Source: Clostridia bacterium BRH_c25 (GTDB taxonomy: Bacteria; Bacillota_A; Clostridia; Lutisporales; Lutisporaceae). From it: 51,323 nt of DNA. The position numbers and the translations under genes are program-made. Position 1 is the stretch's first letter, and each line of letters begins with the position of its first letter. Below are positions 19,320-42,161 of this stretch, piece after piece. Under the pieces are notes generated by a model. The model ran no database searches and was not told where the DNA came from. It saw only the letters and a list, made by a program, of their open reading frames with translations. The stretch covers positions 1 to 51,323 of the forward strand of contig LOES01000038.1 of assembly GCA_001515955.1 (NCBI GenBank), given 5' to 3'.

Positions 19320-19415
19320 ATATAACGATCTCGCACTTATGACACCTCTGAGCCAGACCTGCAAAATCCTATCCTTAGCGGCGCTTGCCACCCGGCGGTG
19401 GAGTGTAGTTGCTGC
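19320..19415 (-). other. partial attC site
   Basis: ATATAAC (19320-19326), a CGCACTTATG L-box variant, CTGAGCCAGACC and a GGCGGTGGAGTGTAGTTGCTGC stretch match the left two thirds of the long attC family. The right arm is replaced by a GC-rich hairpin (GCCGCATGGATGCAGCGG, 19422-19440). Confidence 0.6.
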
Positions 19416-19473
19416 TCATCGTGCCGCATGGATGCAGCGGTCTCAAATAGTTTTATAGTCTCTGTTATCGGCT

Positions 19474-19908
19474 TTATATGTTCTTAATGTTTATGCTTTT
19501 GTTACGATAATTTAAGTCAATCCGTTCTTCAAATCCTATCGCATTCCAAAACGCAGTTCCAATACTATTGCTTTTGAAAACAACAAGAGCAACTTTATTA
19601 ATACCTTCTTTCTCTAATGCCCCAAGAGCTCTATTAACTAACGTTTTCCCAATTCCATTTCCGCGATATTTAATATCAACAGCAGTATGATATATATATC
19701 CTCGCCGTCCATCATGTCCGCTTAATATAACCCCTATAATCATATCATCAATTATTGCAACAAAATTGGTAGCAGGGTTTCTTTTTAAGAATTTTGCGAT
19801 ACCTTCTTTGGAGTCGTCTAAACTACGCATACCCATTCCAGCTGTACTTGTCCATAATTCATACACTTTCTCATAGTCAGCAATAGTCATCACTCTTATT
19901 TCCATCAT
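19474..19908 (-). CDS. GNAT acetyltransferase, YpeA-like
   Basis: 144 residues. MEIRVMTIADYEKVYELWTST, YIYHTAVDIKYRGNGIGKTLVNRAL (motif A) and NSIGTAFWNAIGFEERIDL are the hallmarks of the short YpeA-like N-acetyltransferases. It is the only gene between two attC traces (19320 and 19997), so it reads as a one-gene cassette. Substrate unknown. Confidence 0.85.
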   Translation of the reverse strand: MMEIRVMTIADYEKVYELWTSTAGMGMRSLDDSKEGIAKFLKRNPATNFVAIIDDMIIGVILSGHDGRRGYIYHTAVDIKYRGNGIGKTLVNRALGALEKEGINKVALVVFKSNSIGTAFWNAIGFEERIDLNYRNKSINIKNI

Positions 19909-19996
19909 TTTATCTCCTATACCAAATAATTATCGCTTTATTCAACTTTCTGCAAAGTCCAAGCCGATTATATGGCGAACCAATGCTCGGTCTGTC

Positions 19997-20072
19997 GTGT
20001 AACGTCCAGTATGTCTGATCTTCCAGAGCTTTAGGGCGACTGCCTATAGCGAAGGAATATGTGCGGTCATAC
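19997..20072 (-). other. partial, degenerate attC site
   Basis: GTGTAACGTCCAGTATG begins like the attC sites at 41973 and 39164. CTGATCTTCCAGAGC and GCGAAGGAATATGTGCGGT follow as decayed versions of the inner conserved segments. The right arm is missing. Confidence 0.5.
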
Positions 20073-20172
20073 TTCATTTTTGGAGTTGATTAAGAAGTTC
20101 CATAGAAAGCTCCATATGGTTTATTTCTCTATACATAGACTTTTCCACCTTCCATATATTTTAGAGGATTTA

Positions 20173-20742
20173 TTAGAACTGACCATACGTTTCCTGTTCA
20201 AACTCTTTCAACAATTCATCCATTAATATTACTCTCTTTTCAGCAATTTCAAGAGCTTTAGGCAAAATTATTCTTTGTGGCAGCTTGTCTCTACGTACTT
20301 TAACAGTTTCATAAGCCTTCCGTAAATCGTTTGGTTTCTTTGAAAAATCTCTTAGCACACCTACTACACCCAAAAAATCCAAAGCATCTGCATCACTTAA
20401 AAGGATCGCTTCTATTGAGTTGTTATCTGTGGCAGAATGATGATATTCTATACATTCCAGCACATGATCCATTAAATCTTTTCCACATTCCTTTGCTCGT
20501 AAAAACTCTTCAGCTACTTGTTTCGATCTTATAGCATGATCCATATCGGGTTTAATCCATTTTGCGTATCCACCCCAATCATGCAAATATGCCGAAATCG
20601 TTACTACTTTATTATTGTACTGAAATCCTACTCCAATATCGGAAATGATTTTCAATAGCCGTTTTGTATGGTTTATCCCCCATTCCCCGCCATACTCTTC
20701 AGTTAGTAACGCAATCTCTTCATTTTCAATACTCATAAACAT
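20173..20742 (-). CDS. HD-domain phosphohydrolase
   Basis: 189 residues from the ATG at 20742 (AAGGGGGATCA). HTKRLLKIISDIG, SAYLHDWGGYAKW (HD pair), HAIRSKQVAEEFL, YHHSATDNNSIEA and LSDADALDFLGVVGV give the ordered H...HD...H...D metal ligands of the HD superfamily. Substrates may be nucleotides or phosphorylated metabolites. It sits alone between two partial attC sites. Confidence 0.85.
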   Translation of the reverse strand: MFMSIENEEIALLTEEYGGEWGINHTKRLLKIISDIGVGFQYNNKVVTISAYLHDWGGYAKWIKPDMDHAIRSKQVAEEFLRAKECGKDLMDHVLECIEYHHSATDNNSIEAILLSDADALDFLGVVGVLRDFSKKPNDLRKAYETVKVRRDKLPQRIILPKALEIAEKRVILMDELLKEFEQETYGQF

Positions 20743-20777
20743 TGATCCCCCTTAAAATAAATTATTGAGTATCTACT

Positions 20778-20823
20778 TCTTGCTCCTACCCGCTGTGTTG
20801 CAGTGTGAACGCACTGTTTAAAT
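20778..20823 (-). other. partial attC site (right arm)
   Basis: CTTGCTCCTACCCGCTGTGTTGCAGTGTGAACGCACTGTTTA is a decayed copy of the right arm of the long attC family (compare the sequence ending at 36652). The left arm is missing, as though a deletion between two attC sites fused unrelated ends. Confidence 0.5.
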
Positions 20824-20827
20824 GAAG

Positions 20828-21130
20828 CTATACGTCCCACAGTGCCCGATCTGATAAAATAGATACTGTACCCATAATCAAAATCAACCCTCCAATAAAC
20901 CAAGTTGGTATTCCCCACACCGTATTCTTTTCTTTTCTTATAAAGCTATCATATAGTGAAAAAAGTATAATAAATAAACCTGCAATGATTTCGGTTATCC
21001 CACTGCTATTTCTAGCCATATATATTGACTTCTGTTTAAAAGCCAGCATTAAAACGAATGCTCCCAAAATACAATTTCTCAATATAGCAGGTCCTCTACC
21101 CGAAGAACTAAATGGAGTAACTCTTTTCAT
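20828..21130 (-). CDS. small membrane protein, unrecognised
   Basis: 100 residues; ATG at 21130 after GGAGAG. Three hydrophobic segments (LRNCILGAFVLMLAF, ITEIIAGLFIILFSLY, GIPTWFIGGLILIMGTVSIL) suggest an integral membrane protein with short loops. I recognise no family. It is bounded by an attC remnant on the left and the degenerate attC at 21281 on the right, so it is a one-gene cassette. Confidence 0.65.
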   Translation of the reverse strand: MKRVTPFSSSGRGPAILRNCILGAFVLMLAFKQKSIYMARNSSGITEIIAGLFIILFSLYDSFIRKEKNTVWGIPTWFIGGLILIMGTVSILSDRALWDV

Positions 21131-21280
21131 CTTTTATCTCTCCTTCTAACTTGTTTTGGTATCAATAAGAATATTGCCAAATCAAAATATGGAATATATG
21201 CATCTCCCCAACCACATAATGAACCGGATGCTCCTAAAATATGTATCCTCTTAATCATCATGATTCGCGTCCTTTCTATC

Positions 21281-21440
21281 ACCGAACGTCCAGCACTTAC
21301 GGCGCCACTGAGCTGAGACTCAGAGCCTTACCCCCTTACGGAGCTTAGATTTTGGTGAAGGGGTGTAAATCAGAGCATGAAGCAATTCCCTCATTTCTAA
21401 ATTGCGGCAGAAACAACAATGCCTTTGCCCATTGTAGCAA
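21281..21440 (-). other. complete but degenerate attC site
   Basis: Outer R boxes ACCGAAC (21281-21287) and GTAGCAA (21434-21440), an L-box region CAGCACTTACGG against GCGGCAG...CAATGCC, and the inner AAGGGGTGT segment follow the same plan as the intact sites, with several substitutions. The cassette gene DUF3788 begins its stop 10 bases to the right. Confidence 0.55.
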
Positions 21441-23774: not shown

Positions 23775-23813
23775 AAATGACCTCCTTCTAATTATAAAAA
23801 ACTATATGTATGT

Positions 23814-23880
23814 CATATAACGTGTACACACTCATGACATCACTGAACCGTACCCACAAAGCCATTCTCCTTGGCGGAAC
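23814..23880 (-). other. truncated attC site (left arm)
   Basis: CATATAACGTGTACACACTCATGACATCACTGAACCGTACCCACAAAGC begins exactly like the intact sites, then runs through TTGGCGGAAC and stops as the coding end of the gene at 23886 begins. Confidence 0.65.
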
Positions 23881-23885
23881 CTTAT

Positions 23886-24197
23886 TCAATTATCAAACGC
23901 CTCTACTACGAATACTACAGGTCTAACTCCATCTGTACAACATAGAATCTGCATGCCATCTTTGTTGTTCCATGGCGTATATGTAGCTCCGGCGGCGAGT
24001 GCAGTAACTCCTCTGTAAATATCAATCCAAGCCCATGGGCAAAAGCCCTCTGGCATTACGGCGCTTCCTTCAAAAACGAACTTGTCTCCTTCCTTTAATA
24101 AGGGACACGGGCCAACCTCTTTTCCCTCTGTCAAGTAAGCCTCTGCATATTCTTCGTAAAAGAATCTTTTCAAGACGGTTATTCTTACTTTCCTCAA
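23886..24197 (-). CDS. TIGR04076-family small protein
   Basis: 103 residues from TTG 24197 after GGGGG. KVRITVLKRFF, CPLLKEGDKFVFEG, MPEGFCPWAWIDIYRGVTAL and ILCCTDGVRPVVFVVE fit the TIGR04076 family of short cysteine-containing proteins found in anaerobes. Function is unknown. The gene's 3' end runs directly into a truncated attC. Confidence 0.75.
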   Translation of the reverse strand: MRKVRITVLKRFFYEEYAEAYLTEGKEVGPCPLLKEGDKFVFEGSAVMPEGFCPWAWIDIYRGVTALAAGATYTPWNNKDGMQILCCTDGVRPVVFVVEAFDN

Positions 24198-24248
24198 TGT
24201 CTCTACCCCCTATTTTATATATAATCTATGCCTCACATAATCCTACCT

Positions 24249-24300
24249 ATACGCAATACAAGAATAGTACCTCATACAGCTAAAACCTGAAAGCAGCCGT
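24249..24300 (-). promoter_or_regulatory. shared cassette leader, weak copy
   Basis: ACGCAATACAAGAATAGTACCTC resembles the AAGTACTATTCTTATATTGC (minus-strand) leader seen just after attC at 29108, 39112 and 42754. It lies 52 bases upstream of the TIGR04076 gene and 60 bases from the attC R box at 24362. Confidence 0.4.
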
Positions 24301-24361
24301 ATTGCTTTGGAATTCCTTCTATAGTCCTACTTCTTCCTATAAGAGAATTTGCATTACCTAC

Positions 24362-24447
24362 CAGATAACGTTTCCGCACTCACTACCCCACTGAACCGGA
24401 CCCACAGAGCCTATCCCCTTGGTGAAGCTACGCTCCCGATGAAGGGG
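24362..24447 (-). other. truncated attC site (left arm) joined to conserved block 1
   Basis: CAGATAACGTTTCCGCACTCACTACC, CTGAACCGGACCCACAGAGC and CGCTCCCGATGAAGGGG match the left half of the long family. The right arm is deleted and the sequence joins block 1 at 24452. Confidence 0.65.
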
Positions 24448-24451
24448 TTCT

Positions 24452-24591
24452 GATGAATAATGCCCCTCAACGCCCCGCTCAATCATCTTAATATACCGCT
24501 TCCGGTACCCGGGACCTGACATAAGTCGCTTGTGCAGATATTGTCTCTCTTGGGTTTAAATAACTATTAAACTCCGCATGGGAGTTTGCAC
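24452..24591 (-). repeat. conserved cassette block 1 (copy 1)
   Basis: Roughly 140 bases shared with 28513-28656, 31756-31898 and 42162-42305. Minus-strand features in order: a CAAACTCC-loop-GGAGTTTG hairpin, a TTTAAACCC(A/G)AGAGAGACA segment, an ATG with a conserved frame starting MSGPGYRKRYIKMIE, then attC. Confidence 0.75.
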
Positions 24592-24635
24592 AATATAAGA
24601 ATGTTGTGCCATAAAACTAAATCTTCTAATTAAAA

Positions 24636-24980
24636 TCAAGGTATAATTCCAAATCCAATGACAATTAATATACAGCATATAAGCAAAACTATATTCCCTC
24701 CAAAGCCTATCCTGGATAAGATTCTAACAACTTTATTTTCTTTTGTATTTGAAGGTTTAATGTATCCTATTCCTAATATCCAGTAAATAAATAACAGGAA
24801 TAAATTCAGGCTGCTTGAAGCCATTATTGCTAACCATTCAGAATCGCTTATTCTTAATTCCGCTATCCAAGCATATATGCTAAAAATAAGTAATATACAT
24901 GATAAAATAGCTAAAGTGGTTCTAACAAATTTAATAATCTTACTAATAATAGCACCTCCCAAAATCCGTAGCTTTTTCAA
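24636..24980 (-). CDS. small membrane protein, unrecognised
   Basis: Up to 114 residues from a TTG at 24980. Three hydrophobic segments (FVRTTLAILSCILLIFSIYAWI, LNLFLLFIYWILGIGYI, GGNIVLLICCILIVIGFGIIP) imply a membrane protein. A GGGAGGTG sequence within the first codons hints that translation really starts a few codons later at a non-canonical codon. I recognise no family. Located between attC traces at 24362 and 25025. Confidence 0.6.
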   Translation of the reverse strand: MKKLRILGGAIISKIIKFVRTTLAILSCILLIFSIYAWIAELRISDSEWLAIMASSSLNLFLLFIYWILGIGYIKPSNTKENKVVRILSRIGFGGNIVLLICCILIVIGFGIIP

Positions 24981-25024
24981 TTGCTGTATAATATACTACT
25001 GAAATAACGATCAGCACCATATGC

Positions 25025-25157
25025 CATATAACGACCCGGCACTCACGATATCACTGAACCGGACCCATTAGCCCTTCCCCTTGGCGGAGCGACCCTCCCG
25101 GTGAAGGGGTGTGGTTGCCCTTGCCCAACCTGCCGCAGCGTGAGTTCATTGTTGAAC
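25025..25157 (-). other. attC site (133 bp)
   Basis: Outer boxes CATATAAC (25025-25032) and GTTGAAC (25151-25157); L boxes CACTCACG against GCGTGAG. Inner CTGAACCGGACCC, GGTGAAGGGGTGTGGTTGCCC and CCGCAG match the long family, but the GGCAACCCAAGGCACG segment is deleted, which shortens the site. Confidence 0.8.
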
Positions 25158-25190
25158 TAAACTGCTAGAGCGGTGACCTTTCACTTCTAT

Positions 25191-25605
25191 TCCTAATTAT
25201 CCCATATATACATTACATTTTCCAGCGAACATCCTTTAAGATAGAGTTAAATATTTTAAAGGATGTGATTTCATGTATCAACTTATCGAGAAAATGATTG
25301 ATAACATACAGCTTAGGGGGTTCAGCCCTAAAACCATATATGCCTATACTGCCCATGCAAGAAGGAATACTTAGGGCGGTACACTCACCGGGTGGCCATA
25401 TCAAACAACAGGATTGTAAAAATGCGTCATTTTGGCATCTTAAGCAATCGGAACCCTCAGGGCAAACTGCTTAAATGCAAAAAACTGACAGCAGCAAAGC
25501 TGCTTTTAAAGCTGACTGGCCGTGATGTAACGCTTTGTCTCTGCTGTCAAAAGGGATATATGAAACGGCAGACATTACTGCCACATATGGCGATGCCCTA
25601 ATTCA
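25191..25605 (+). mobile_element. IS91-type element remnant (recombinase start fused to transposase end)
   Basis: A 20-base motif at 25191-25210 repeats the one at 4171-4190 and probably marks the element end. An ATG at 25273 opens MYQLIEKMIDNIQLRGFSPKTIYAYTAHARRN, the N-terminal SAM-like domain of a tyrosine recombinase. After a deletion, a second reading (about 25368-25601) gives LGRYTHRVAISNNRIVK, FGILSNRN and two CxxC pairs, the end of a Y2 rolling-circle transposase. Both element genes were thus merged into one relic, on the plus strand unlike the cassette genes. Confidence 0.65.
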
Positions 25606-26519: not shown

Positions 26520-26705
26520 CATCTAACGTCTTCACACTCACGGCATCGCTGAACCGGACCTCAGAAGCCTGCCTCTTAGCGGAGCTCCGCTCCCGATGAA
26601 GGAGTGTGGTTGCTGCCCTTCTCCAGAGCAATAGTTTCTGCAACCCAAGGCATGCACGCTTCTTGCTCCTGCCCAACATGCCGCAGCGTGAGGGCATTGT
26701 TACAA
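26520..26705 (-). other. attC site (186 bp)
   Basis: CATCTAAC (26520-26527) and GTTACAA (26699-26705) are the R boxes; CACACTCACGG and GCGTGAGGGCA the L boxes. GGTTGC (26608) pairs with GCAACC (26639), and GGAGCTCC makes an inner palindrome. In the minus sense it starts TTGTAACAATG and ends ACGTTAGATG, the classical AAC-AA / C-GTT polarity. On the left lies hicBA, transcribed the opposite way. Confidence 0.85.
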
Positions 26706-26819: not shown

Positions 26820-27392
26820 TTAATTTTTACTATTTGATAGCATATACCATTCTTCCCTCAAGATACCATAGCTCACAGAATCGTAATATTGGTTATTAAC
26901 AATTCTTGCTTTCCTATAAACAGCTTCATTTTTTAAGTCAAGCTTTTCAGCTAGTTTCATCATTCTCTCATTTCCAGACCAAGTTGATAATCCCAGTCTT
27001 ATAAGTTTTGGGTTTTGCTCAAATATTTCGTCAATCCACATTTTTAAAGCTTTGTAACCTATTCCCTGTCCCCAATAGCCGTCATTAAAAATAACAATTC
27101 CAATTTCCATCCAGAGAGTTTCTTCTGATTTCCAATACCAATTCACTTGACCAATTATCTCATCAGTATCTTTGTTTGCTATTATTTTTTTATTTTTAAG
27201 TACGTTTTTTTCCCCTTCTAGCAAAAGTATTTTTAAGTCTTCAATATGCTTTCTTAATTCCTCCTCATTACTTTTTCCATAATATGGACCATTGAACTTA
27301 TGGAATTCACGAGAAGGATGATTCCAATACAAATAATCTTCTAAATCTTTAACTTCTAATTCTCTTAAGACTAAGCTTATTGATTTATTCAT
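26820..27392 (-). CDS. GNAT acetyltransferase, RimJ-like
   Basis: 190 residues, ATG at 27392 after GGAGGAATAAC. SLVLRELEVKDLEDYLYWNHPSREFH, EIGIVIFNDGYWGQGIGYKAL (motif A) and NERMMKLAEKLDLKNEA identify a GNAT enzyme. Similar proteins modify amines on ribosomal proteins or small molecules. It is a one-gene cassette: attC 26520 follows its 3' end and attC 27491 precedes its start. Confidence 0.85.
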   Translation of the reverse strand: MNKSISLVLRELEVKDLEDYLYWNHPSREFHKFNGPYYGKSNEEELRKHIEDLKILLLEGEKNVLKNKKIIANKDTDEIIGQVNWYWKSEETLWMEIGIVIFNDGYWGQGIGYKALKMWIDEIFEQNPKLIRLGLSTWSGNERMMKLAEKLDLKNEAVYRKARIVNNQYYDSVSYGILREEWYMLSNSKN

Positions 27393-27490: not shown

Positions 27491-27632
27491 GCCTAACGTT
27501 TTGTGTCTGCAACGTTCCTGAACTGGACCCCTGAGGAATATCCCTTGACGGTGCTTGCACCCGGTGAAGGAATGTAGTGCGGCCTACCCCAGAGCACTAC
27601 TTTACCGAACTCACGGCAGAGCATTGTTCTAC
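27491..27632 (-). other. attC-like site, divergent (142 bp)
   Basis: GCCTAAC (27491-27497) and GTTCTAC (27626-27632) are good R boxes and the inner GGTGCTTGCACCCGGTGAAGG and CATTGTT segments match other sites. The left and right L regions pair only weakly. A GC hairpin (GCCGACACGGGCGTCGGC, 27652-27669) follows on the right. Confidence 0.65.
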
Positions 27633-27700: not shown

Positions 27701-28234
27701 TTATAATTCGTTCTTATAAAGTCTCATTAAATATTCTGGTTCATCCTCGTCTGGAACTTGTATTGTCTTTAAATACTTAAACCCTGCTTTTTCATATGCT
27801 CTAATTGCAGTCTTATTTTGGGGTTCTGGACCAATTATGCAACAAACTGCATCATTTAACAAAAACACATATTCACGTAAGAACTTAGTCAATATATTTT
27901 TTGCTAATCCTTTGTGAATAAATTCTTGCTCCCCAATAAACAAATCCATTCCGGCTGCATGCTCATCTGTGTTAACATACTTGCTATATTCTGGATAGTC
28001 CTCTATCATATACGTTTGTATGTAGCCAATACCCCTATTATTACATTCTATTACAAATGGAAATGTTGGCTGTTCACCTTTGATTCTTGGTAAATATCTT
28101 CTAACCACTTCATCAAATGAACTACTTTTTTTACCAAACCATTCTATAACAAAATCAGTATTTAGCCATTTATACATTATTTGCAAGTCCGCTTCTTCCA
28201 ATTTTCTAAAAGTTATTTCACAAATTGCAGACAT
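27701..28234 (-). CDS. GNAT acetyltransferase of the AAC(6')-Ib-like group
   Basis: 177 residues from ATG 28234 (GAGGGGGGA upstream). ITFRKLEEADLQIMYKWLNT, IEWFGKKSSSFDEV, RRYLPRIKGEQ, FVIECNNRGIGYIQTY, GMDLFIGEQEFIHKGLAKNIL and KTAIRAYEKAGFKYLKTIQVP follow the order and spacing of AAC(6')-Ib type aminoglycoside 6'-N-acetyltransferases, a family famous as integron cassettes. Resistance activity is inferred only from this resemblance; relatives include siderophore and lysine acetylating enzymes. It lies between attC 27491 and attC 28323. Confidence 0.75.
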   Translation of the reverse strand: MSAICEITFRKLEEADLQIMYKWLNTDFVIEWFGKKSSSFDEVVRRYLPRIKGEQPTFPFVIECNNRGIGYIQTYMIEDYPEYSKYVNTDEHAAGMDLFIGEQEFIHKGLAKNILTKFLREYVFLLNDAVCCIIGPEPQNKTAIRAYEKAGFKYLKTIQVPDEDEPEYLMRLYKNEL

Positions 28235-28284
28235 ATACTCCCCCCTCAATAGTGTAGTACTTTCATACCAGTATCTTTTTAGAA

Positions 28285-28306
28285 CAATCGGCGCAAGGAT
28301 GCGCCG
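28285..28306 (-). repeat. cassette hairpin with TCC loop
   Basis: Minus-strand GGCGC-ATCCTT-GCGCC lies between attC 28323 and the start of the acetyltransferase gene, in its 5' leader. Confidence 0.5.
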
Positions 28307-28322
28307 CCTTGCCCCCCATTTC

Positions 28323-28512
28323 GTTGAACGGTTCCGCACTCACGACACCACTGAACTGGACCCGCAGAGCCTTTCCCCTTGGCGGAGCTCCGCTCCCGGT
28401 AAAGGGGTGTGGTTGCCGTGCTACCGCTTCAAAGCAAATGCATCCGGCAACCCAAGGCACGCTTGCTTCTTGCCTTTTCTCTCCGTGCCGCAGCGTGAGG
28501 GCTTTGTTAGCT
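28323..28512 (-). other. attC site (190 bp)
   Basis: R boxes GTTGAAC (28323-28329) and GTTAGCT (28506-28512), L boxes CACTCACG and CGTGAGGG. Inner GGCGGAGCTCCGCTCCCGG palindrome and GGTTGCC/GGCAACC arms (28409, 28449) are intact. Minus-strand ends read AGCTAACAAAG and CCGTTCAAC. Confidence 0.85.
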
Positions 28513-28656: not shown

Positions 28657-28670
28657 TAAAAACAATATGG

Positions 28671-31898: not shown

Positions 31899-32016
31899 AT
31901 AGAAATATTTCGACATAGCGTTTATTATCTCCGCGATATAAGAGTATTAAAAGTCCTCTACTTACGTTCTTGTGTTGTATAGATACATGGTTATTCCGTT
32001 TCAAAGGTAACTTCTT

Positions 32017-32656: not shown

Positions 32657-33559
32657 TTAAAGTTTCAACCGATTGAGCATTTTTGCCGTATTTAAAACAC
32701 GGTTCATGTATTTCATATGAATTTGGGGTAAGATGACATTTACCTTTTCACCTTTCCCGAAAAAATGTCTCCTATTCTTGACAGTTGCTAGATGTCCCTG
32801 CTCAATATCAGGGAATAGCATAAACCGTTCGACCTCAAGCCCCTCATTTAGAACAACGAAAACCTTAGGATTTAATTCCCACGATCCGTTATGCACCACT
32901 TCATTTCTTAGAGCTTCAATTGTACTTATCAGATCACATTTTTCAAAAACAGTCTGATTTGTTCCGTTAATTTTTAACTTTTTCCTCTCACCCCACAATA
33001 CATCAGAACTTTTCATCTTCTTATAACACGAAAAATCATCCATGGGGTTCTCAAATTCATAAGCTAACTTGCAGAACATATCTAAAATAGAATATGCTTT
33101 TACAAAATAGCTTTCTAATAAGGATGATATGTTTCTAACTGACTGAGACATTGTGAAATAGGTTGTATTCAAAGCTTCTGTTTGAAAAGAACATTTGATA
33201 TCGGAAATCTTGACATAGTAATTAACAAATGCATCCTCCATACCACTTATTAGATTTTGTATTGTTCCAATTAAGTACTGACAATCAACCAAATATAAGT
33301 AGCGATTGATATCCGGCATTGTTTTAAACAAATCCCCTTCAATTAATTTGCAGAAGCTGTCTGCGGTTAAGCCACAATCAGAATCTTGTCCTGCAGCTTG
33401 AAAAAAGATCGGCATTGTATTAAGTTGAGAATAGTATTTATCAGTGTCTGGGAAAAACAAATCTCGTAGTTTGTCATACAAGGAAACTAATTCACCGTCG
33501 AGTTCATACTTAATTGAATCGCCTGGATATATGTATGGGTCAACTGAAGAATTCTCCAT
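32657..33559 (-). CDS. HEPN-like protein (RNEVVH motif), possible in-frame stop near the original start
   Basis: 300 residues, mostly helical. EALRNEVVHNGSWELNPKV contains RxxxxH, the HEPN ribonuclease signature, in the position where Cthe_2314-type HEPN proteins carry it; the rest shows no clear homology. The annotated ATG at 33559 lacks a good ribosome site. An ATG at 33640 with a strong CGAGGTGACTATA site reads MRTFYQNGIQ-TGA-DVQFFVEESDEF into this frame, so codon 11 is a stop and the original start is probably lost. Confidence 0.6.
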   Translation of the reverse strand: MENSSVDPYIYPGDSIKYELDGELVSLYDKLRDLFFPDTDKYYSQLNTMPIFFQAAGQDSDCGLTADSFCKLIEGDLFKTMPDINRYLYLVDCQYLIGTIQNLISGMEDAFVNYYVKISDIKCSFQTEALNTTYFTMSQSVRNISSLLESYFVKAYSILDMFCKLAYEFENPMDDFSCYKKMKSSDVLWGERKKLKINGTNQTVFEKCDLISTIEALRNEVVHNGSWELNPKVFVVLNEGLEVERFMLFPDIEQGHLATVKNRRHFFGKGEKVNVILPQIHMKYMNRVLNTAKMLNRLKL

Positions 33560-33783: not shown

Positions 33784-33971
33784 CGATAACGGTTTCGCAC
33801 TCACGACACCACTGAACCGGACCCCAGAGCCATACTCCCTGGCGGAGCTGCGCTCCCGGTGAAGGGGTGTGGTTGCCCTGCTCCTGCTTCAAAGAAATGC
33901 ATCCGGCAACCCAAGGCACGTTTGCTCCTTGCTCTTGCCCTTCGTACCGCTGCGTGAGGGCATTGTTATAT
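33784..33971 (-). other. attC site (188 bp)
   Basis: CGATAAC (33784-33790) and GTTATAT (33965-33971); L boxes CACTCACG and GCGTGAGGG; inner GGCGGAGCTGCGCTCCCGG and GGTTGCC/GGCAACC arms conserved. Confidence 0.9.
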
Positions 33972-34059: not shown

Positions 34060-34614
34060 TTACTTTCGTAATCTTAGGTTATATTTCTTCTTCTCTGCAA
34101 TTTCATCTAATATCTTATGAAGGACTTTTGATTTGTTCTTAATTTCTAACCCATACGAATCTTCTTTTGCTCTTACTACTGCATCTTTTAATTCTTTAAC
34201 TTCCATAACCGTTGTAGCAATACAATAATAACTTTTCGAACGCCCTTCATTAAAATTATCTAACATCTCTTTGAGAATTTCTTCCTTCATGTTTTGTAAT
34301 TCCACAAATTGTTCAATGCCATTGTTTTGTACAAAACAAATATCATCCTCAAGCTTTTGATAGCATTTAAATGAATCAACTTCTTTGCCTGCTGCTCTAT
34401 GCTTTTTCCACTTTGGGCAATCAGCGCTCTCATTGCATTCCCAGCAAAATTCAATTCCTTTCTTCTTAATAGCGCAGGTAATAAAAGGGCACCCAACACT
34501 CATTCTTGCCTCACTTTTACATCCTTCGCATTTGCATTTGCTATCCGTTTGATACATTGGACATAATTTACACGAAAGACCACATATCCCTACTTGAGGA
34601 TATTTGATTTCCAT
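34060..34614 (-). CDS. DUF3795 cysteine-rich protein (copy 3)
   Basis: 184 residues, ATG 34614 (TAGGAGTG upstream). VGICGLSCKLCPMYQ, CKCEGCKSEARMSVGCPFITCAIKKKG and FCWECNESADCPKWKKH match DUF3795. A helical C-terminal part (residues 85-184, with FVELQNMKEEILKEMLDNF) is fused on, longer than in copies 1 and 2. Role unknown. The region upstream of it is taken by an IS110 element rather than a clean attC. Confidence 0.85.
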   Translation of the reverse strand: MEIKYPQVGICGLSCKLCPMYQTDSKCKCEGCKSEARMSVGCPFITCAIKKKGIEFCWECNESADCPKWKKHRAAGKEVDSFKCYQKLEDDICFVQNNGIEQFVELQNMKEEILKEMLDNFNEGRSKSYYCIATTVMEVKELKDAVVRAKEDSYGLEIKNKSKVLHKILDEIAEKKKYNLRLRK

Positions 34615-34766
34615 ATTTTTCACTCCTATACTTATTCCTGTACACAACTTTTAAAGTTCGTGTCCAGGTTTATTTTTCCCAGATTTTAACTGAGAATCAC
34701 CTCATCGACTCTTCGAAGACATCTGCTATATTTCTTCGAAGCCCTTCTTAAACGTCCTCTATATGC

Positions 34767-34795: not shown

Positions 34796-35101
34796 GTTTT
34801 TACCCGTTTTACTTTTCAGGGGCACCATGGCATGATTAAACTGTAAGGTTAATCCGGGGATGGCCTGTCACTCCTTGTTGCTTTAAAGCACTCATAAAGT
34901 ATGACCTCCTGCTCTGTGCCTGCCACTTCCAACTCACGCTTTGCTGCTTCAATCTCAATACCCTCTGCAGTAGCAGCTACAGGTTTTTTAGGTATTCTGA
35001 TTAGCGCTTATTACGAGGTTGCTGTACGGTGCAGTTGCCAGGATGCCCCTGTTTTATCTTACACACTGCTTACCAGCTTTTAATGAAAGGAGGTGCACAG
35101 T

Positions 35102-36229
35102 ATGTCTGATTTCGTTAAAACCTTATTCGTTGGTGCTGATGTCGGCCTGGATACCGTTGATATCTGCTTCTTGGATTTTGCCGGTAACAAGCTCAACTCC
35201 AAAAGACTTGCCTACGATAATGACCTTCCAGGTTCCCAAGAGCCTATTGAGCATGTCTTTCAAACCATGTTCAAGCATAGCCTGGAATCCATCATGTTCG
35301 GTATCAAAGCAACTTCTTTTCTAGGTTGGCATCTTGAGGTCGCCATTCTGGATAGCCCTGTCCTCTGGAAGTTCAAGCCTGCTGCCTTTGACTTCCCTTA
35401 CATCGCCCTGCAAAGGCTTACAAGGCTTAGGTTCCACCTGGCCGATTATATGGCCAGAGAGAAGAATATTTTCATGAGCGTGCTTTTTTTAAAGTCCAGC
35501 TCTCTAAGACAGTCCGATATATTCTCCAATACCTTCGGTGCTGCATCCTTAGCTGTTATCAACGACTTTATGACTGTCGATGAAATTGCGGCAAGACCGC
35601 TTGATGATCTTATTGACTTCCTCATGGATACGGGTAAGTCACATTTTAAGGACCCTGCACAAACTGCCATACAGCTTAAAGAGGCTGCTTCAAAGGCTTA
35701 CAGGCTTCATTCCGATCTGCACAATCCAGTTAACTTTGCTTTAAAAACGACTGCTGAGAATATCAAATTCTATTCAAAGCAAATGAAAATCGTTGATGCT
35801 CAGATCAAGAAGCAAGCCTCAGCCTTTGAAAACCCGCTGCTTTCAATTAAAGGCATAGGTCCTGTATTCAGTGCCGGCCTCATTGCTGAAATTGGCGATA
35901 TTAAAAGGTTCCCCAATGATGATGCGCTTACCAGCTATGCAGGCCTGACATGGAAGTTCTCCAAATCCGGCAGAAACTAACAGGCAGAGGATACTTTCAT
36001 CACCAGAACCGGTGACGCCTATCTGCGTTATTACATTACCGAAGCTGCAAACCTTGTCAGGCAACATGTTCCTGAGTATATCGCCTATTACCGGCAAAAG
36101 CATAATGAGTCGAAAACTCATAAACATCGTAGGGCCCTCGTATTTACAGCCCGTAAACTGGTCCGCCTTGTTTTCGCGCTGCTACACAATAACAAAAACT
36201 ATTCCCCCAATTTTAGGAGGTGTAGCTAA
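35102..36229 (+). pseudogene. IS110-family transposase (second copy), deleted and interrupted
   Basis: ATG 35102 after AAAGGAGG. LFVGADVGLDTVDICFLDF is the RuvC-like N-terminus, but the expected D-rich segment with conserved tyrosine and DxxDA is shortened between GIKATSFLGW and HLADYMAREKN. SIKGIGPVFSAGLIAEIGDI and YAGLTWKFSKSGRN are the C-terminal domain, where TAA replaces a codon after GRN. The frame then continues EDTFITRTGDAYLRYYI. It belongs to a different IS110 branch from the copy at 29589. Confidence 0.8.
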
Positions 36230-36430
36230 TTACTGATTTTACAATTATGTTAATTATTTACAGCAGATTTTTGGGGCTGCCGGGCATCTTATTGCCTTTT
36301 TTAAACAACAGCACCGTGCCTTTCTATTGCTACTTAAAAAATTTTTCTTGACATATTACCACGCTACTTTGATATTCTATACTTCACAATATAACCCAAG
36401 TATTTACTTGCAAAGCTCGTCCCGAAAACG
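36230..36430. other. non-coding stretch right of the second IS110
   Basis: AT-rich sequence with no gene. GGGGCTGCCGGGCATCTTATTGCC may be part of the IS110 right end. No R box precedes the intact attC at 36475. Confidence 0.4.
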
Positions 36431-36453: not shown

Positions 36454-36474
36454 GCTCGGTCTGTCATATAACGT

Positions 36475-36652
36475 CTCCGCACTCACGACGTCCCTGAACC
36501 GGACCCGCAGAGCCTGTCACCCTAGCGGAGCTGCGCTCCCGGTGAAGGGGTGTGGTTGCTGCTCCTGCTCCAGAGCAATTGCTACTGCAACCCAAGGCAC
36601 GACTGCTTCTTGCTCCTGCCCGCCGTGCCGCAGCGTGAGCGCTTTGCTATGT
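36475..36652 (-). other. attC site (178 bp) with altered right R box
   Basis: CATATAAC (36475-36482) and GCTATGT (36646-36652). The right box has GCT in place of GTT. L boxes CACTCACG and GCGTGAGC, and GGTTGC/GCAACC arms are conserved. The same GTT-to-GCT change is found at 42155. Confidence 0.85.
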
Positions 36653-36746: not shown

Positions 36747-37541
36747 CTAACTAGATAATGAAAGCGAGTTTAAAATTGTATTGAACATTTTATCCCAGTC
36801 GTAATCTGTATTATCTAAAACGATAGATTTCAAAGGTAACTGTTTTATTACGCATAACTCCAAAGCTTTTCTTTTTTCATAATAAGCAATTGTTTCTTTT
36901 GTTGACCACTTAGGTTTTGAACGAATAAAAGCTGTGCGTTCTAAAGATTCTTTGACATTATTCTGTGAAATATAAAAAATAACAGGGTTTAGCGGTTTTA
37001 TAATGTCTGCAATAACATTTAAGTGCGCAATAATTTCATCGTCTCTTATATGTGGATACAATCTATTAGTATCATGGATTTGATGTTGAAGTAGAGTACT
37101 TTCAAAAATTGTTATTTCATCTTTGCCAACCATTTCAATAACATATCTCTCAAATCGTCTGTAAAATACATGCTTAAAAGTATCAAATGAAACAATAGGA
37201 TTTCTTGAATAACAGAATTCTTTAGAGTTCAAGTACTCGATTAGCAGAGCGTTATACGGGTAAGGCTCAAGTATCTTATATGGCGAAAGTACATAGTTAT
37301 CTTCAACAATAGAATTCTGTTTTAGCCATTCTGCTTGATCCTGATATTTCAAAATCAAAGTGTTATACTCAGTAAGAGATAGATATCCATAGAATGATAA
37401 ATCTATTGGGTGTTGGCATCCTTCAATAAAAGCAGTTGAATTAACTCCATTTTCAAGAAAGTACTTGTAGAGTAATTGAGAAGTTGTTGTTTTCCCTGAC
37501 CCTGGGATACCTTCAAAAACTATTAATTTAGTGTTTATCAT
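36747..37541 (-). CDS. P-loop kinase (thymidylate/deoxynucleoside-kinase-like)
   Basis: 264 residues, ATG 37541 after AAGGAAG. LIVFEGIPGSGKTTTSQLLYKYF is the Walker A loop; a C-terminal TAFIRSKPKWSTKETIAYYEKRKALE helical lid and NPVIFYISQNN, the nucleotide-side strand, follow as in the thymidylate kinase-like superfamily. The acceptor is unknown and may be a nucleotide or small metabolite. The cassette is bounded by attC 36475 and the divergent site at 37636. Confidence 0.75.
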   Translation of the reverse strand: MINTKLIVFEGIPGSGKTTTSQLLYKYFLENGVNSTAFIEGCQHPIDLSFYGYLSLTEYNTLILKYQDQAEWLKQNSIVEDNYVLSPYKILEPYPYNALLIEYLNSKEFCYSRNPIVSFDTFKHVFYRRFERYVIEMVGKDEITIFESTLLQHQIHDTNRLYPHIRDDEIIAHLNVIADIIKPLNPVIFYISQNNVKESLERTAFIRSKPKWSTKETIAYYEKRKALELCVIKQLPLKSIVLDNTDYDWDKMFNTILNSLSLSS

Positions 37542-37621: not shown

Positions 37622-37635
37622 CCATATGCTCGGTC

Positions 37636-37729
37636 TGTCATATAACTCTTAGTATTGTATCTGAAGTTGAGCGAATAGTAATTTATCCCGTATTGGCATT
37701 CACCCTCAATTTCAGATACAATTTAGTTG
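37636..37729 (-). other. possible divergent attC site
   Basis: CATATAAC (37636-37643) and GTTGAAC (37723-37729) enclose GTATCTGAAGTTGAG pairing with CTCAATTTCAGATAC (one mismatch), a stem of 15 bp. Unlike the other sites the left spacer is about 10 bases and the box is not preceded by C on the minus strand, so this remains tentative. Confidence 0.45.
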
Positions 37730-37915: not shown

Positions 37916-38602
37916 CTATGCAATTAGTTTCTTAATTTCTATATTTCTATCCTTAACCGGACTCAATATTTCTTTCCTAACAAGCCTACCAATGTCGCAA
38001 TACGGGCATATCCTCGGATCCTTACCTGTTAACTCTTTCAGCAGTTCCTGCCAGCTTATCTTTTCTTTTGTTTTCTTGGTGCTGATTCCGAGTATCTCTT
38101 TGCATCTCTTTAGCTTGATACTTCTATTGCGATTGCTCAATATACCATAATGCCTAATCTTTACAAAGTTATCAGGCAATATGTGCAGCAGAAACCGTCG
38201 TATGAATTCATGTGCTCCTACGGTCATAAGTTTGTTTTTATTCCTATCTTTGTAATCTCGATACTTATATGTTACTTTTCCATCTGCTAAATCAGTGATT
38301 CTGTTATTTGATATGGCTACTCTGTGCGTATACCTTCCCAGGTATTCAAGTACATACTCCGGACTCTTAAACGGTGGCTTTGAGTACACAACCCATTCTC
38401 TTTTATATAGGCTGTCCACAAGTTCTTTAAAATTTTTTTCTTCAGCTATTTCCTGTATATTACCGTAGAATTTAAGCTTCTCTTTGATATATGCATCCTT
38501 AAGATAGTGCAAAAACTTACCTCTAAACAGCCTTGATACTACTTTTATTGGAATTAGAAACTGTTCTCTTGATGATATCCATCTGTTAGAATCAAAAGAC
38601 AA
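37916..38602 (-). pseudogene. IS91-family transposase, 3' fragment
   Basis: SREQFLIPIKVVSRLFRGKF, EYVLEYLGRYTHRVAISNNR, VGAHEFIRRFLLHILPDNF and IRHYGILSNRNR are the C-terminal half of a Y2 rolling-circle transposase, ending with a CPYCDIGRL zinc pair. The N-terminal half with the HUH motif and catalytic tyrosines is absent; at about 38630 the sequence changes into an acetyltransferase gene. Confidence 0.8.
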
Positions 38603-39057
38603 TCCACCACCCGGTACAATGCAGTGTATTCAGCTTTAATTATCTCATATCCATCCGGAATTATTATATTTTCACTATATCTATCGTTTTTACGAAATGA
38701 ATATTCATCTTCTGTCTGAATGGCTTTATTACTAAATATTTCGAGAATAAATGGCCTTGCTTTCTCTGACTCAAAAGAAAACTCAAAAAAATCAACTCCT
38801 CTACTTTTTAGCCAACAAAACATATTTTCTATCATAAAAGTTTTAAATTTACTGTAAACCTCGATATTAGTAGATTCTCCTAATATTGAAAATCCGCCAA
38901 CTGCAAATGAAGCAACCAATGCAATATTTGGGTTCTCTACATCATCAACCCACATATCGCCTTTACATTCACCAGCAACAATCCCCGAAAAGCTTGGACT
39001 ATCATCATATGTAATATTGGCAATAGCTTTTGAACCGAGCTTATCTACTTTTATCAA
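38554..39057 (-). pseudogene. GNAT acetyltransferase truncated by the IS91 fragment
   Basis: From TTG 39057, VDKLGSKAIANITYDDSPSF through RYSENIIIPDGYEI is a close match to the first ~145 residues of the protein at 12609-13424. After about 38630 the reading changes to IS91 sequence and stops, so the acetyl-CoA-binding half is missing. The N-terminal domain alone is unlikely to be an enzyme. Confidence 0.8.
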
Positions 39058-39163: not shown

Positions 39164-39352
39164 CGTATAACGTCCAGCACTCATGACACCACTGAACCGG
39201 ACCCGCAAAGCCTACCCCCTAGCGGAGCTCCGATCCTGGTGAAGGGGTGTGGTTGCCCTGCTTCCGCTCCATATTAAATGCATCCGGCAACCCAAGGCAC
39301 GCACGCTCCCTGATCTAGCCCGACCTGCCGCAGCGTGAGGGCATTGTTAGGC
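39164..39352 (-). other. attC site (189 bp)
   Basis: CGTATAAC (39164-39171) and GTTAGGC (39346-39352) are a near-consensus R pair; L boxes CACTCATG and GCGTGAGGG; inner GGCGGAGCTCCG and GGTTGCC/GGCAACC arms present. Minus ends read GCCTAACAATG and ACGTTATACG. Confidence 0.9.
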
Positions 39353-39433: not shown

Positions 39434-39802
39434 CTATTTTGATTTATATGCTATACCATCAATTTGTACCTTAAGCCCTTTTGGACCACCTATATGTGCA
39501 AACTCTGTAGAAATAGTTTTTCTTGCGGGATAGTTTCCTTTAAATCTCCGTCTGAAGACTTCCTCCATTATTGGAATATCCCAGACATCTCTGAGCAAAA
39601 CATCAACTTTAACTACTGAGTCTAGCGTGAGATTTACCTTTTCTAGTCTAGCGCACATATCATCAAGGGCTCCTTCAATCTGCTTTTCAACTGACTGACC
39701 AACATTCCCAACACAAAAACTGAGGAATACAAAGTCTCCCGCCTCAGTAAATCCAGAGAATGCCATTTCCTCGTTTACCTCATGCCTTACTATTTCACTC
39801 AT
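39434..39802 (-). CDS. RidA/YjgF-family protein
   Basis: 122 residues, ATG 39802 after AAGGATGG. GDFVFLSFCVGNVGQSVEKQI, ALDDMCARLEKVNLTLDSVVKVDVLL and RKTISTEFAHIGGPKGLKVQIDGIA fit the RidA family, trimers that often deaminate reactive enamines from PLP enzymes. The signature arginine lies in ARKTISTEF. It is a one-gene cassette between attC 39164 and attC 39934. Confidence 0.85.
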   Translation of the reverse strand: MSEIVRHEVNEEMAFSGFTEAGDFVFLSFCVGNVGQSVEKQIEGALDDMCARLEKVNLTLDSVVKVDVLLRDVWDIPIMEEVFRRRFKGNYPARKTISTEFAHIGGPKGLKVQIDGIAYKSK

Positions 39803-39933: not shown

Positions 39934-40009
39934 GCCTAACGTCCCATGTATTGCCGACGCGTCCTGCCTACCCGCATCTTGACAAAGTGTCGGCGATACG
40001 CTGTTAGGC
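39934..40009 (-). other. textbook short attC site (76 bp)
   Basis: GCCTAAC (39934-39940) and GTTAGGC (40003-40009) are exact consensus boxes. Minus strand: GCCTAACA-GC-GTATCGCCGAC ... GTCGGCAATAC ... GACGTTAGGC, where GTAT/ATAC and GCCGAC/GTCGGC pair and one extra base (C against A) interrupts the arms, the usual extrahelical position. Length and layout match mobile-integron attC sites and differ from the 190-bp family around it. Confidence 0.9.
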
Positions 40010-40056: not shown

Positions 40057-40085
40057 TCCATAACTCAATATTATAAATAGCTATT

Positions 40086-40718
40086 TCATCGTTTATGCCT
40101 CTCAAAATATCCCATCTCATTTCCGGAATAGTAGATATTATAACCTCCGCTACTTGTGTCTTCCCCAAACTCTATAGGCAAATATTTCTTATCAAATATT
40201 ACTTTGTGAGGTTTGATAAACTGAGTATATACACAGATGATTTTGTTTTCTTCGTTATTAATCAATGCATATTCATAACAATTGTTGTTATTAAATATCG
40301 TTACATAGGCCGGATACATAAAGTGTTCTGTATCATACACAATTTTATTGACAATGTCTTTATATTGCTCAAGTTCAAATTTTTCAGAAATCTTGGATAG
40401 CCTGGATACTTCAGCTTCAAAATCTGCTTTTGAAAGAGAATATTCTAAATAAATCTGGCAAGTGGGATCAAAAAGAGTATCCCTTTGATAATAGTAATAA
40501 GAATCTATTCGTTCTGAATCAGGTATTTTCTTTGGGAAAATGTATAGATTGCTATACCCTTTGAAATCTTCAAAAACACCATAATCTTTAACATCAGATG
40601 TTTTGATAGGGGGTCCACCGTATAGAAATAAATATAGAGAACTAATGCATAAGAGCAAAAAAACAATTATACTTCCAGCTATAATAAGAGCAACTTTTTT
40701 TGTTTTCTTTTCCTTCAT
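40086..40718 (-). CDS. membrane-anchored protein, unrecognised
   Basis: 210 residues, ATG 40718 after GAGGTG. A basic N-terminus and one hydrophobic helix (KKVALIIAGSIIVFLLLCISSLYLFLYGG, residues 8-35) anchor an extracytoplasmic domain of about 175 residues with many aromatic residues (DSYYYYQRD, YPAYVTIFNNNNCYEYALI). I recognise no family. It is a one-gene cassette between attC 39934 and attC 40798. Confidence 0.65.
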   Translation of the reverse strand: MKEKKTKKVALIIAGSIIVFLLLCISSLYLFLYGGPPIKTSDVKDYGVFEDFKGYSNLYIFPKKIPDSERIDSYYYYQRDTLFDPTCQIYLEYSLSKADFEAEVSRLSKISEKFELEQYKDIVNKIVYDTEHFMYPAYVTIFNNNNCYEYALINNEENKIICVYTQFIKPHKVIFDKKYLPIEFGEDTSSGGYNIYYSGNEMGYFERHKR

Positions 40719-40797
40719 CTATTCACCTCAGATTATCAATAATTTCATATTATTATATTCTTAACCTGCGTCAAGGATGGCACACACCTCCTATGTC

Positions 40798-40925
40798 GCC
40801 TAACGTCCCGTGTCTGCGACGCCGAAACCCTTAGCGTGACCGCACTTTGGGTCGCAGGTGTGGTGTGCTGCTCCTTCTCCAAAGACTTGCATCTGCACAC
40901 CCTTGCGCCAAACACATTGTTACAC
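40798..40925 (-). other. attC site of a third type (128 bp)
   Basis: GCCTAAC (40798-40804) and GTTACAC (40919-40925). CTGCGAC/GTCGCAG and GTGTGGTGTGC/GCACACC form inner stems. The right arm TGCGCCAAACACATT differs from the CGTGAG family. Minus ends read GTGTAACAATG and GACGTTAGGC. Confidence 0.8.
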
Positions 40926-40975
40926 ATCGGACCGAGCCCCACGAAGCCAAGAGCAGCAAGGAGGCTGCGACCTTA
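40926..40975 (-). repeat. conserved cassette block 2 (copy 4)
   Basis: ATCGGACCGAGCCCCACGAAG then GCAAGGAGGCTGCGACCTTA. Although the attC here is of a different type, the block is the same as at 33972. Confidence 0.75.
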
Positions 40976-41004
40976 AACCTCTTCTGATTCGCATTTTATA
41001 AAGA

Positions 41005-41823
41005 TTATGATTCATTAACTCTTAAAAGCCATTCGTTAACCAATGACCCAAATAGTTCTTCTTGCTCTAACTCCAAAATATGTCCTGCTTTATCTAATAC
41101 AGCAAATGTTGCTCTTGGATAGTTATCCAAAATACTCCAAGCATCTTTATAACCTACACTTGAATCTTGGCGACCTAAAAGCATAAGAGTGGGTTTTTCA
41201 TATTTTTTATCAATCTTATCGACATCAAATGAAAATTCATAACCATTTTCTTGAAAATTACTTAGGAATTTATCATCTGCAATTTTTACTCCAGAAAAAA
41301 TTTCATCCTCATATCTCTTCCATATTTTTTCACTTTGAACCACAGCAATAGGATTGAATTCTTCTGCATCTAATGGACTAAGTTGTTGTAATAAAGATTC
41401 ATCTTTCTTTAACACAATATGTGTAGGTCTATTGCGTTTTTTAGCATCTGCAATAATACAAGGACATAATAGTAATAACCCATCTACTTTGTTTGCCATT
41501 TTATAAATTAATCCCCTGGCTAAATATCCTCCATAGGAATCACCAACAAGTAAGAAATTTTCATTTGGAATAATATTGTCAATAAAATCAATTACAATAT
41601 CAAGCATTATATCAGAATTTTTAATCCATTCTTCACTTTTGGTTTTTCCCATACCTGGTAAATCAATATATATTCTTTTGTATTCATTTCTATCTTTAAA
41701 TATTGGCTCGAAGCATCCTGTCATTAATCTGTGGTCAGTATAATATCCATGCAACATAAAAATAGGCTTACCTTTACCACATATCTCATAATTTATTTCT
41801 AAATTTCTTATTTTACATTTCAT
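41005..41823 (-). CDS. alpha/beta-hydrolase
   Basis: 272 residues from ATG 41823 (GGGGGAGAA upstream). PIFMLHGYYTDHRLMTG, IYIDLPGMGKTKSEE, LLVGDSYGGYLARGLIYKM (nucleophile serine in GDSYG), LMLLGRQDSSVGY (acid) and LDKAGHILELEQEELF (histidine) are the complete catalytic framework of the fold. The substrate may be an ester or antibiotic-like lactone; unknown. It is a one-gene cassette bounded by attC 40798 and attC 41973. Confidence 0.85.
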   Translation of the reverse strand: MKCKIRNLEINYEICGKGKPIFMLHGYYTDHRLMTGCFEPIFKDRNEYKRIYIDLPGMGKTKSEEWIKNSDIMLDIVIDFIDNIIPNENFLLVGDSYGGYLARGLIYKMANKVDGLLLLCPCIIADAKKRNRPTHIVLKKDESLLQQLSPLDAEEFNPIAVVQSEKIWKRYEDEIFSGVKIADDKFLSNFQENGYEFSFDVDKIDKKYEKPTLMLLGRQDSSVGYKDAWSILDNYPRATFAVLDKAGHILELEQEELFGSLVNEWLLRVNES

Positions 41824-41936
41824 TTTTTCTCCCCCATTATCCTTAAAAAATCTTATATTATCTATTCTATTCTTATATTTTCGCATTAATCTACTAACCC
41901 GAAGTAACCTTCTGCAAAGCCCAACACACTCATATA

Positions 41937-41956
41937 TCGCGCCAGGACGGCGCACC
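41937..41956 (-). repeat. cassette hairpin with TCC loop
   Basis: Minus strand GTGCGCC-GTCCT-GGCGCGA lies just after attC 41973 in cassette sense, upstream of the hydrolase gene. Confidence 0.5.
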
Positions 41957-41972
41957 ATTTGCTCAGTTTGTC

Positions 41973-42161
41973 GTGTAACGTCCTCGCACTCACAACACCA
42001 CTGAGCCGTACCACAGAGCATGTCCACCTGGCGGAGCTCCGCTCCCGGTGAAGAGGTGTGGTTGCCCTGCCCCCGCTACAAAGCAAATGCATCCGGCAAC
42101 CCAAGGCACGCATACTCCCTGCCCTTTCCTGCCGTGCCGCAGCGTGAGGGCATTGCTAGCT
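41973..42161 (-). other. attC site (189 bp) with altered right R box
   Basis: GTGTAAC (41973-41979) and GCTAGCT (42155-42161), the latter again with GCT instead of GTT. L boxes CACTCACA and GCGTGAGGG; inner GGCGGAGCTCCGCTCCCGG and GGTTGCC/GGCAACC arms intact. It is the last clear site toward the recombinase. Confidence 0.85.

Follow-up and report, generated by a model that had tools for sequence, protein, structure and literature searches.

The 51,323-nt stretch of DNA analyzed here (hereafter the window; Clostridia bacterium BRH_c25, assembly GCA_001515955.1, contig LOES01000038.1, positions 1-51,323, forward strand) contains an array of gene cassettes and attC-type sites that is very probably a chromosomal integron of Clostridia, in which a tyrosine recombinase at the head of the array, placed beside IntI and lacking the IntI-specific insert, most likely acts as the working integrase. 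At the level of sequence, this reading is carried by the cassette boundaries, the covarying stems of the sites, the way recombinase and array stay linked in different chromosomal settings, and the lack of an above-cut-off IntI match in related genomes. Judged in this way, the region is an integron in the working sense, with every clearly testable integron feature present and the IntI-defining insert absent. An earlier note on this DNA had proposed an integron-type cassette array at 19320-42161, either a chromosomal integron or a CALIN (an array of attC sites without an integrase). Bracketed sites, own-box matching, and covariation bear out the array, which lies there and starts further out, at 42811-42893 beside the integrase; because a recombinase within the window heads the array, the integron part of the proposal stands and the CALIN part does not.

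attC-type sites and cassette boundaries

Between 26524 and 42158, the window holds 12 bracketed attC-type sites with plus-strand boxes of the form TAACG (or GAACG) and TTGTTA-like; 11 begin TAACG, and the one at 28326 begins GAACG. Read on the minus strand, on which all of them lie, each site consists of R'' (TAACAA), L'', a variable interior, L', and R' (GTTA), and the intervals mostly hold one minus-strand gene each, with its 3' end toward R''. These conserved R boxes, pairing L boxes, and variable interiors are what is expected of multiple attC sites in an integron. From the integrase end, the sites are A (41976-42158; 183 nt, with a degenerate R'' box, TAGC), B (40801-40922; 122 nt), C (39937-40006; 70 nt), D (39168-39349), E (36469-36649), F (33787-33968), G (32472-32573; 102 nt), H (31572-31752), I (29166-29347; R'' box broken by an IS110 element), J (28326-28509), K (27494-27629; 136 nt), and L (26524-26702). 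A long interior is common to eight of them, and the sites at 27494, 32472, 39937, and 40801 have other interiors between the same ends. About seven further sites are decayed or truncated: one near 37643 (37626-37655, minus strand), of which only R' (GTTATATGACAG) is left at the start of the next cassette; three picked up by the covariance model on the minus strand within 23812-25164 (25023-25164, 24360-24545, and 23812-23977); and, on the same strand at the distal end of the array (19317-21439), those at 21278-21439 and 19317-19452 plus an R'-type remnant near 20000. The earlier count of 13 complete, one degenerate, and at least six truncated sites thus comes close to ours of 12, one putative attI, and about seven.

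The core attC pattern occurs eight times in the window and not once in 100 shuffles, so the repeats stand above shuffled sequence. A covariance model (R1) trained on eight of the window's own sites matched 16 sites at E≤1e-5, namely the eight training sites and eight others; the 70-nt site C was unmatched by R1 and was recognized by its boxes. Outside the array, R1 gave one weak match in the window (14.9 bits, 9350-9541). Two attC patterns searched in viral contigs found no match, and a generic attC scanner of our own design did not tell the arrays apart from background.

If G|TT is the cutting point, a cassette's leading box and the R'' box of its own attC come from one circle and should match each other, whereas the box across the junction belongs to the neighbor. 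Among the 11 testable cassettes of the window, the own box matched at 4.64 of six variable positions and the next box at 3.45 of six (permutation p 4e-5), eight cassettes being better with their own box, two equal, and one better with the next. The same test gave p 5e-5 for the array of G003 (10 cassettes), and the observed matching was reached in none of 20,000 permutations for G323 (17 cassettes) and G116 (16 cassettes), so that a G|TT junction was indicated by significant own-box matching in four of the six arrays tested. At site I, where the IS110 element splits the R'' box, the right flank of that element agrees over nine bases with the R' box of the same cassette. As the sequences read, own-box matching is the footprint of recombination at G|TT. 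In all five arrays tried, a walk along the chain of cassettes got no further than two sites, and in G341 it found none.

At E≤1e-5, R1 collected 138 sites from the window and 26 fetched loci, the latter chosen for having R1 matches or holding the integrase. In the alignment of these sites, two-sided changes were found in 42 of 44 stem pairs, 90.3% of the cells pair, and all eight pairs of the L-arm helix covary. The covariation score was 0.255, compared with 0.127 after shuffling and 0.03-0.07 with slid partners; the alignment was fitted to the structure, which biases it in favor of covariation, and the gap to both controls is large. Folding, proposed in the earlier note as a check, gave weak evidence, with minimum free energy z-scores of about +1.4 to -3.5 for single window sites relative to shuffles. 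The case for attC sites is therefore built on covariation and box matching and not on thermodynamic folding.

The integrase and its linkage to arrays

The recombinase gene (42905-43822, minus strand) heads the array in the same orientation, which places an adjacent tyrosine recombinase gene where an integron is expected to have one. It had been overlooked in the earlier note, which advised searching for IntI elsewhere in the genome, and it does not encode a standard IntI. An open reading frame at 43073-43822 (249 aa) encodes a SAM-like domain (SAM_4) and most of the phage-integrase catalytic domain, and the C-terminal part (RHSF...YTH) follows in another frame to about 42905, with a frameshift at an A-run near 43095-43110. 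Unless it reflects a sequencing error, this frameshift has probably inactivated the window copy. The best solved relative by sequence is IntI4. Its neighbors are a cassette gene on one side and genes of a molybdenum cofactor (MoCo) cluster on the other, and it is not paired with a Y2/IS91 transposase gene as IS91-type accessory recombinases are.

Passages of PMC9668308 define IntI as a tyrosine recombinase with an IntI-specific domain, an insert near patch III. This insert of about 41 residues is absent here: 57 residues separate the KDR box from HxLRH in this family, as against 98 in IntI1 and 58-63 in the Xer and XerA rows of our tree, and the 57-residue spacing recurs in all 23 clostridial and homologue tree rows other than the cut window row. 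Consistent with this, the IntI profile TIGR02249 matches as two pieces around the insert, skipping positions of about 180-231, and residues 180-239 of IntI4 align opposite only 18 residues. Four intact relatives with attC sites on their contigs scored 217.8-226.8 bits with TIGR02249, below its cut-off of 265 bits, and the same four pass NF040815 (XerA/integron integrase, cut-off 220); the gene of G007, which contains a run of N, scored 174.7 bits and the window frame 129. In a tree of 45 rows, with under-sampled IntI diversity and several long branches, the seven IntI rows group as one clade (100/98) with the family outside it, the family and IS91-type recombinases stand beside that clade (93/82), and the two groups together are split from the Xer and XerA rows (100/98). 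According to passages of PMC8138268, the insert is not fully conserved in an integron-like subgroup of simple tyrosine recombinases.

An N-terminal HARP-like domain was found in 11 of 37 members at E≤0.01; of five relatives with scores, three match, all below the Pfam cut-off, and two do not. One might guess that this domain has a role in grasping folded single strands. A fold model of the integrase (pLDDT 84.9; pTM 0.60) gave low TM-scores and matched archaeal XerA (Z 23.8 and 21.3) and IntI4 (Z 19.8) at similar E-values, which decides nothing.

Directly 3' of the integrase gene, a putative attI (42811-42893, minus strand) consists of one or more imperfect dyads and then G|TTAGATG, which marks the beginning of the first cassette. 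A survey of 15 loci (the window and 14 genomes) found in most of them one or two imperfect dyads, ACGAAC...GTTCGT, directly 3' of the integrase and then GTTANNY, often about 12 nt further on. At least one dyad within 140 nt was present in 12 of the 15 loci, compared with 3.6% of random stretches, and the full pattern in seven of 15, compared with 0.5%; the patterns were set after inspecting the sequences, and both comparisons are descriptive. Dyads with perfect arms numbered five in the 15 loci, little above the 3.0 expected by chance. Compared with the R'' box of the first cassette, the R' box of the putative attI agrees at eight of eight positions in G283 and G323 and at five of six in the window, and differs at a single position in G334 and G003; no such match was found in G341. 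A reading of the dyads as LexA boxes was not adopted, the length of their center being variable.

A pattern scan of contigs found the same attC type in seven genomes, six of them labeled as Clostridia, Clostridiales, Clostridiaceae, Firmicutes, or Bacillota metagenome-assembled genomes (MAGs) and the seventh (G003) labeled Calditrichales and grouped in the class of G001; five of the seven carry an integrase homologue with 54-67% identity. In G001, a MAG of a Clostridia bacterium, seven flanking genes (moeA-like, moeA, moaA, and others) follow the window order at 75-91% protein identity and lead into integrase and array. Together with the nearest relatives, which are attC loci in Clostridia or Bacillota MAGs, this agrees with the clostridial host assumed in the earlier note. 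Across 391 genomes of the class of G001, in which attC matching scored six candidates per genome, attC matches were found in 30, the integrase (E≤1e-40) in 26, and both in 17, so that the integrase was present in 17 of 30 attC-positive and nine of 361 attC-negative genomes (Fisher p 1.2e-15); with strict filters and the same six candidates, R1 had no match at E≤0.001 in those 361.

Linkage was followed in the 20 genomes that matched the integrase best (E below 1e-67). In seven, the contig ends within about 0.7 kb of the integrase 3' end (G007, G088, G090, G093, G140, G290, and G297), and in 12 of the remaining 13 an attC match lies 0.8-3.7 kb downstream of the integrase on the same strand (G001, G003, G004, G005, G026, G063, G139, G165, G217, G283, G323, and G334). 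The nearest downstream match is weak in G026 (31.9 bits) and G063 (26.7 bits), and in G139 and G165 the integrase contains stops or lies in pieces. On a 3.26-Mb contig of G323, the integrase is followed by 29 attC matches that span about 53 kb and share one strand. The genes upstream of the linked integrases (the nearest sizeable gene or one close to it, and sometimes not the immediate neighbor) include atpD, cysN, indolepyruvate oxidoreductase, flavocytochrome c, an IS91 transposase, an IS1634 fragment, and MoCo genes, and adenine deaminase lies upstream in G297, which is not among the linked loci. Because the upstream genes differ among loci, the integrase goes with the array and not with a shared neighborhood.

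Homologues with 38-42% identity occur on Bacteroidota plasmids, two from Chryseobacterium and one from Rufibacter. On two of these plasmids, SNU WT5 and Rufibacter, the homologue is followed by co-oriented small genes, and on the C. oryzae plasmid one gene follows, and then an IS91 element. The Rufibacter plasmid has the same layout, and own-box matching holds there for six of six cassettes in succession, the first at 10 of 10 bases (by eye). On the Acinetobacter baumannii plasmid NZ_CP104336.1 (L119 / L127), a short recombinase of the xerD type lies upstream of tet(X3) and is placed by the tree among the integrases of this family; tet(X3) lies directly downstream on the same strand, with dyad- and attC-like stretches on both sides (by eye). 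This recombinase may be derived from a Bacteroidota integron of this kind.

In the order we propose, the recombinase gene stands at the head, the putative attI lies directly 3' of it, and the cassettes, mostly one gene plus its attC, follow in the orientation of the integrase. The recombinase, a member of a family beside IntI that shares its core, lacks its insert, and in some members bears a HARP-like domain at the N terminus, most likely cuts folded attC and joins it at G|TT to attI or to other attC sites. Cassettes would enter at the integrase end and drift toward the decayed distal end. That the recombinase performs this reaction, the strand it uses, and the attI as drawn are what we infer from these patterns.

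Cassette genes and inserted elements

The cassette products include GNAT acetyltransferases, VOC, RidA, DUF3788, and DUF3795 proteins, a hydrolase, a 2'-5' RNA ligase-like protein, and several without a recognized family. Such products are of the usual sort for integron cassettes. All the cassette genes that follow lie on the minus strand. The first encodes a glyoxalase/VOC-family protein (42365-42799), and its true start is probably further in than the one listed; the next, for an alpha/beta hydrolase (41005-42027), has a listed GTG start within site A and likewise probably starts further in. They are followed by a gene with no Pfam match (40086-40718), a RidA-like (L-PSP) gene (39434-39802), a gene or remnant with no Pfam match (38554-39057), and a P-loop kinase-like gene (36747-37541; PRK06761 family, below cut-off). 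Beyond these lie a DUF3795 gene (34060-34647), one without a family match (32657-33559), one without a Pfam match (32017-32391), a 2'-5' RNA ligase-like gene (30939-31463), a second DUF3795 gene (28671-29072), and two GNAT acetyltransferase genes (27701-28339, whose listed start overlaps site J, and 26820-27392).

Mobile elements interrupt the array at several points. A fragment of an IS91-type Y2 transposase lies at 37916-38602 (minus strand). One IS110-family element (plus strand, approximate ends 35093-36230) sits in the cassette between sites E and F, and its transposase frame (35093-35980) stops within the Transposase_20 domain; another (plus strand, approximate ends 29348-30889) sits in the R'' box of site I, with a transposase frame (29544-30377) that has the DEDD domain only. 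An IS110-family element stands at the R'' box of an attC-type site in a Chryseobacterium plasmid array as well (L114:10257-11258; by eye). At 25213-25600, the N-terminus of a tyrosine recombinase and the C-terminus of an IS91-type transposase seem to survive as fused remnants (by eye), and a 50-nt piece from this region recurs inverted at 38298-38347.

Left of the array, two gene pieces are duplicated at 94% identity (11019-11260 and 16003-16244), and DNA at 12997-13424 is 84% identical to 38630-39057, within the array gene or remnant that ends there; these pieces are perhaps old cassettes without recognizable sites. A short repeat resembling GCAATATAAGAATAGTACTTC lies between the R' box and the gene start in four cassettes (at 24252, 29113, 39115, and 42759; starts by eye) and could be a cassette promoter, contrary to the idea of promoter-less cassette genes. 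A conserved stretch of about 160 nt, containing a hairpin like AACTCCGCATAGGAGTT, is found on the gene side of R'' in four cassettes (24452-24613, 28513-28674, 31756-31917, and 42162-42323). The sole match of an Rfam scan of the window was a molybdenum cofactor riboswitch at 51263-51323, upstream of the molybdenum gene cluster and cut off by the window end.

Alternative explanations and known systems

Several observations weigh against reading the region as a working integron of this kind. The last tested cassette of the window (K to L) matches its own box at two of six positions and the next at four of six, the cassettes B to C and T1 to E fit own and next box alike, and box matching was not significant in the short arrays of G001 and G003b (four cassettes each; p 0.25). 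No close integrase was found in two of the seven pattern-scan genomes (G002 and G006), and 13 of the 30 attC-positive genomes lack a family integrase at E≤1e-40, some of which may be fragmentary MAGs. In G341, the integrase is followed by about 18 kb of sequence in which the attC model has no match. The tree samples IntI narrowly, the TIGR02249 scan of the 30 attC-bearing genomes ran without an IntI-bearing positive control, and an IntI cut by a contig end would score low in it. Passages of PMC8138268, moreover, call the IntI insert essential for integron function.

The array could be real and still a CALIN, its neighboring recombinase being an accessory enzyme, for instance of the IS91 type, with a working standard IntI elsewhere or in another cell. 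The IS91-type accessory recombinases are near relatives in the tree, pieces of IS91-type transposase lie in the window, an IS91 transposase gene lies upstream of the G283 integrase, and the 13 genomes just mentioned would fit as well. We nevertheless consider this unlikely, as TIGR02249 gave no above-cut-off match in any of the 30 attC-positive genomes, the recombinase stands at the array head on the same strand in 12 genomes and, though frameshifted, in the window, with at least seven different upstream contexts, the site adjoining it matches the first cassette, and an IS91 transposase accounts for only one of the 10 upstream genes scanned. Slightly less probable still is an ordinary IntI integron, acquired by horizontal gene transfer, whose integrase became unusual through degradation or secondary loss of the insert; the frameshift of the window copy and the 218-227 bits with which TIGR02249 matches both halves of four intact relatives speak for it, whereas the short spacing shared by those intact relatives and every uncut clostridial or homologue row, and the separate clade of the seven IntI rows, speak against it. 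A family of dispersed palindromic repeats, akin to repetitive extragenic palindromes or miniature inverted-repeat transposable elements and lying between genes by chance, would account for the long interior common to many copies, and we give it hardly any credence: sites B, C, G, and K keep the boxes around different interiors, the sites share a single orientation beside one integrase, the intervals mostly hold one gene with its 3' end at the site, and box matching tracks cassettes, where a repeat family predicts complementarity of R'' and R' within a site and not across a cassette.

The integron reading, which places the region neither among CALINs nor among standard-IntI integrons because a recombinase heads the array and lacks the IntI-specific insert, can be set beside known systems. 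Class 1 integrons and the sedentary chromosomal integrons of the Vibrio type, both built on IntI, have in common with it an integrase gene, an attI-like site, cassettes of one gene and attC, the G|TT junction, and R and L boxes around a variable interior. They differ in that the integrase here lacks the insert and is placed outside the IntI clade as sampled, the cassettes are oriented like the integrase, attC interiors reach about 180 nt with several stems, and the attI-like site has one or two dyads. The chromosomal integrons of Treponema are set apart by description, in the passages compared, in that their integrases are named IntI. The insert-less members of the integron-like subgroup of simple tyrosine recombinases, likewise compared by description, are not linked to attC arrays in passages of PMC8138268. 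The IS91-type accessory recombinases resemble the family in tree position and in having no insert, but the examples seen lie directly beside an IS91 transposase gene, whereas this family heads cassette arrays. The IS110-family element that adjoins one of the window's attC sites at its end recalls the IS1111-attC insertion sequences, which passages of PMC11187229 place at the attC R'' boxes of classical integrons.

Integrons in Firmicutes are not new as such, since a survey with IntegronFinder 2.0 reports one complete integron there (passages of PMC9024848) and a review counts Firmicutes among the phyla with integrons (passages of PMC8618304). In open-licence PMC literature, with preprints and most subscription papers outside this scope, we found no report of insert-less integrases heading cassette arrays. 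Searches with IntI-specific profiles, as passages of PMC9668308 describe them, are expected to miss this family, and the absence of the IntI-defining piece may be the reason such platforms seem rare in Clostridia. The chances seem to us evenly balanced that there is a second, ancient integron lineage in Clostridia and some Bacteroidota, including plasmids, whose integrases never had the insert, recognize folded attC otherwise (perhaps through the HARP-like domain), use an attI of their own design with dyads before G|TT, and are passed over by the IntI-defining profile; integrons would then be much commoner in these phyla than reports suggest, and integron recombination would not require the insert.

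Sites of this type are present in 30 of 391 genomes of one class, 17 of which also carry a family integrase. If the integrase works, an insert held to be essential for integron function would be dispensable, the origin of IntI could be studied against close insert-less relatives, and a reservoir of cassettes in anaerobes and on Bacteroidota plasmids would come into view.

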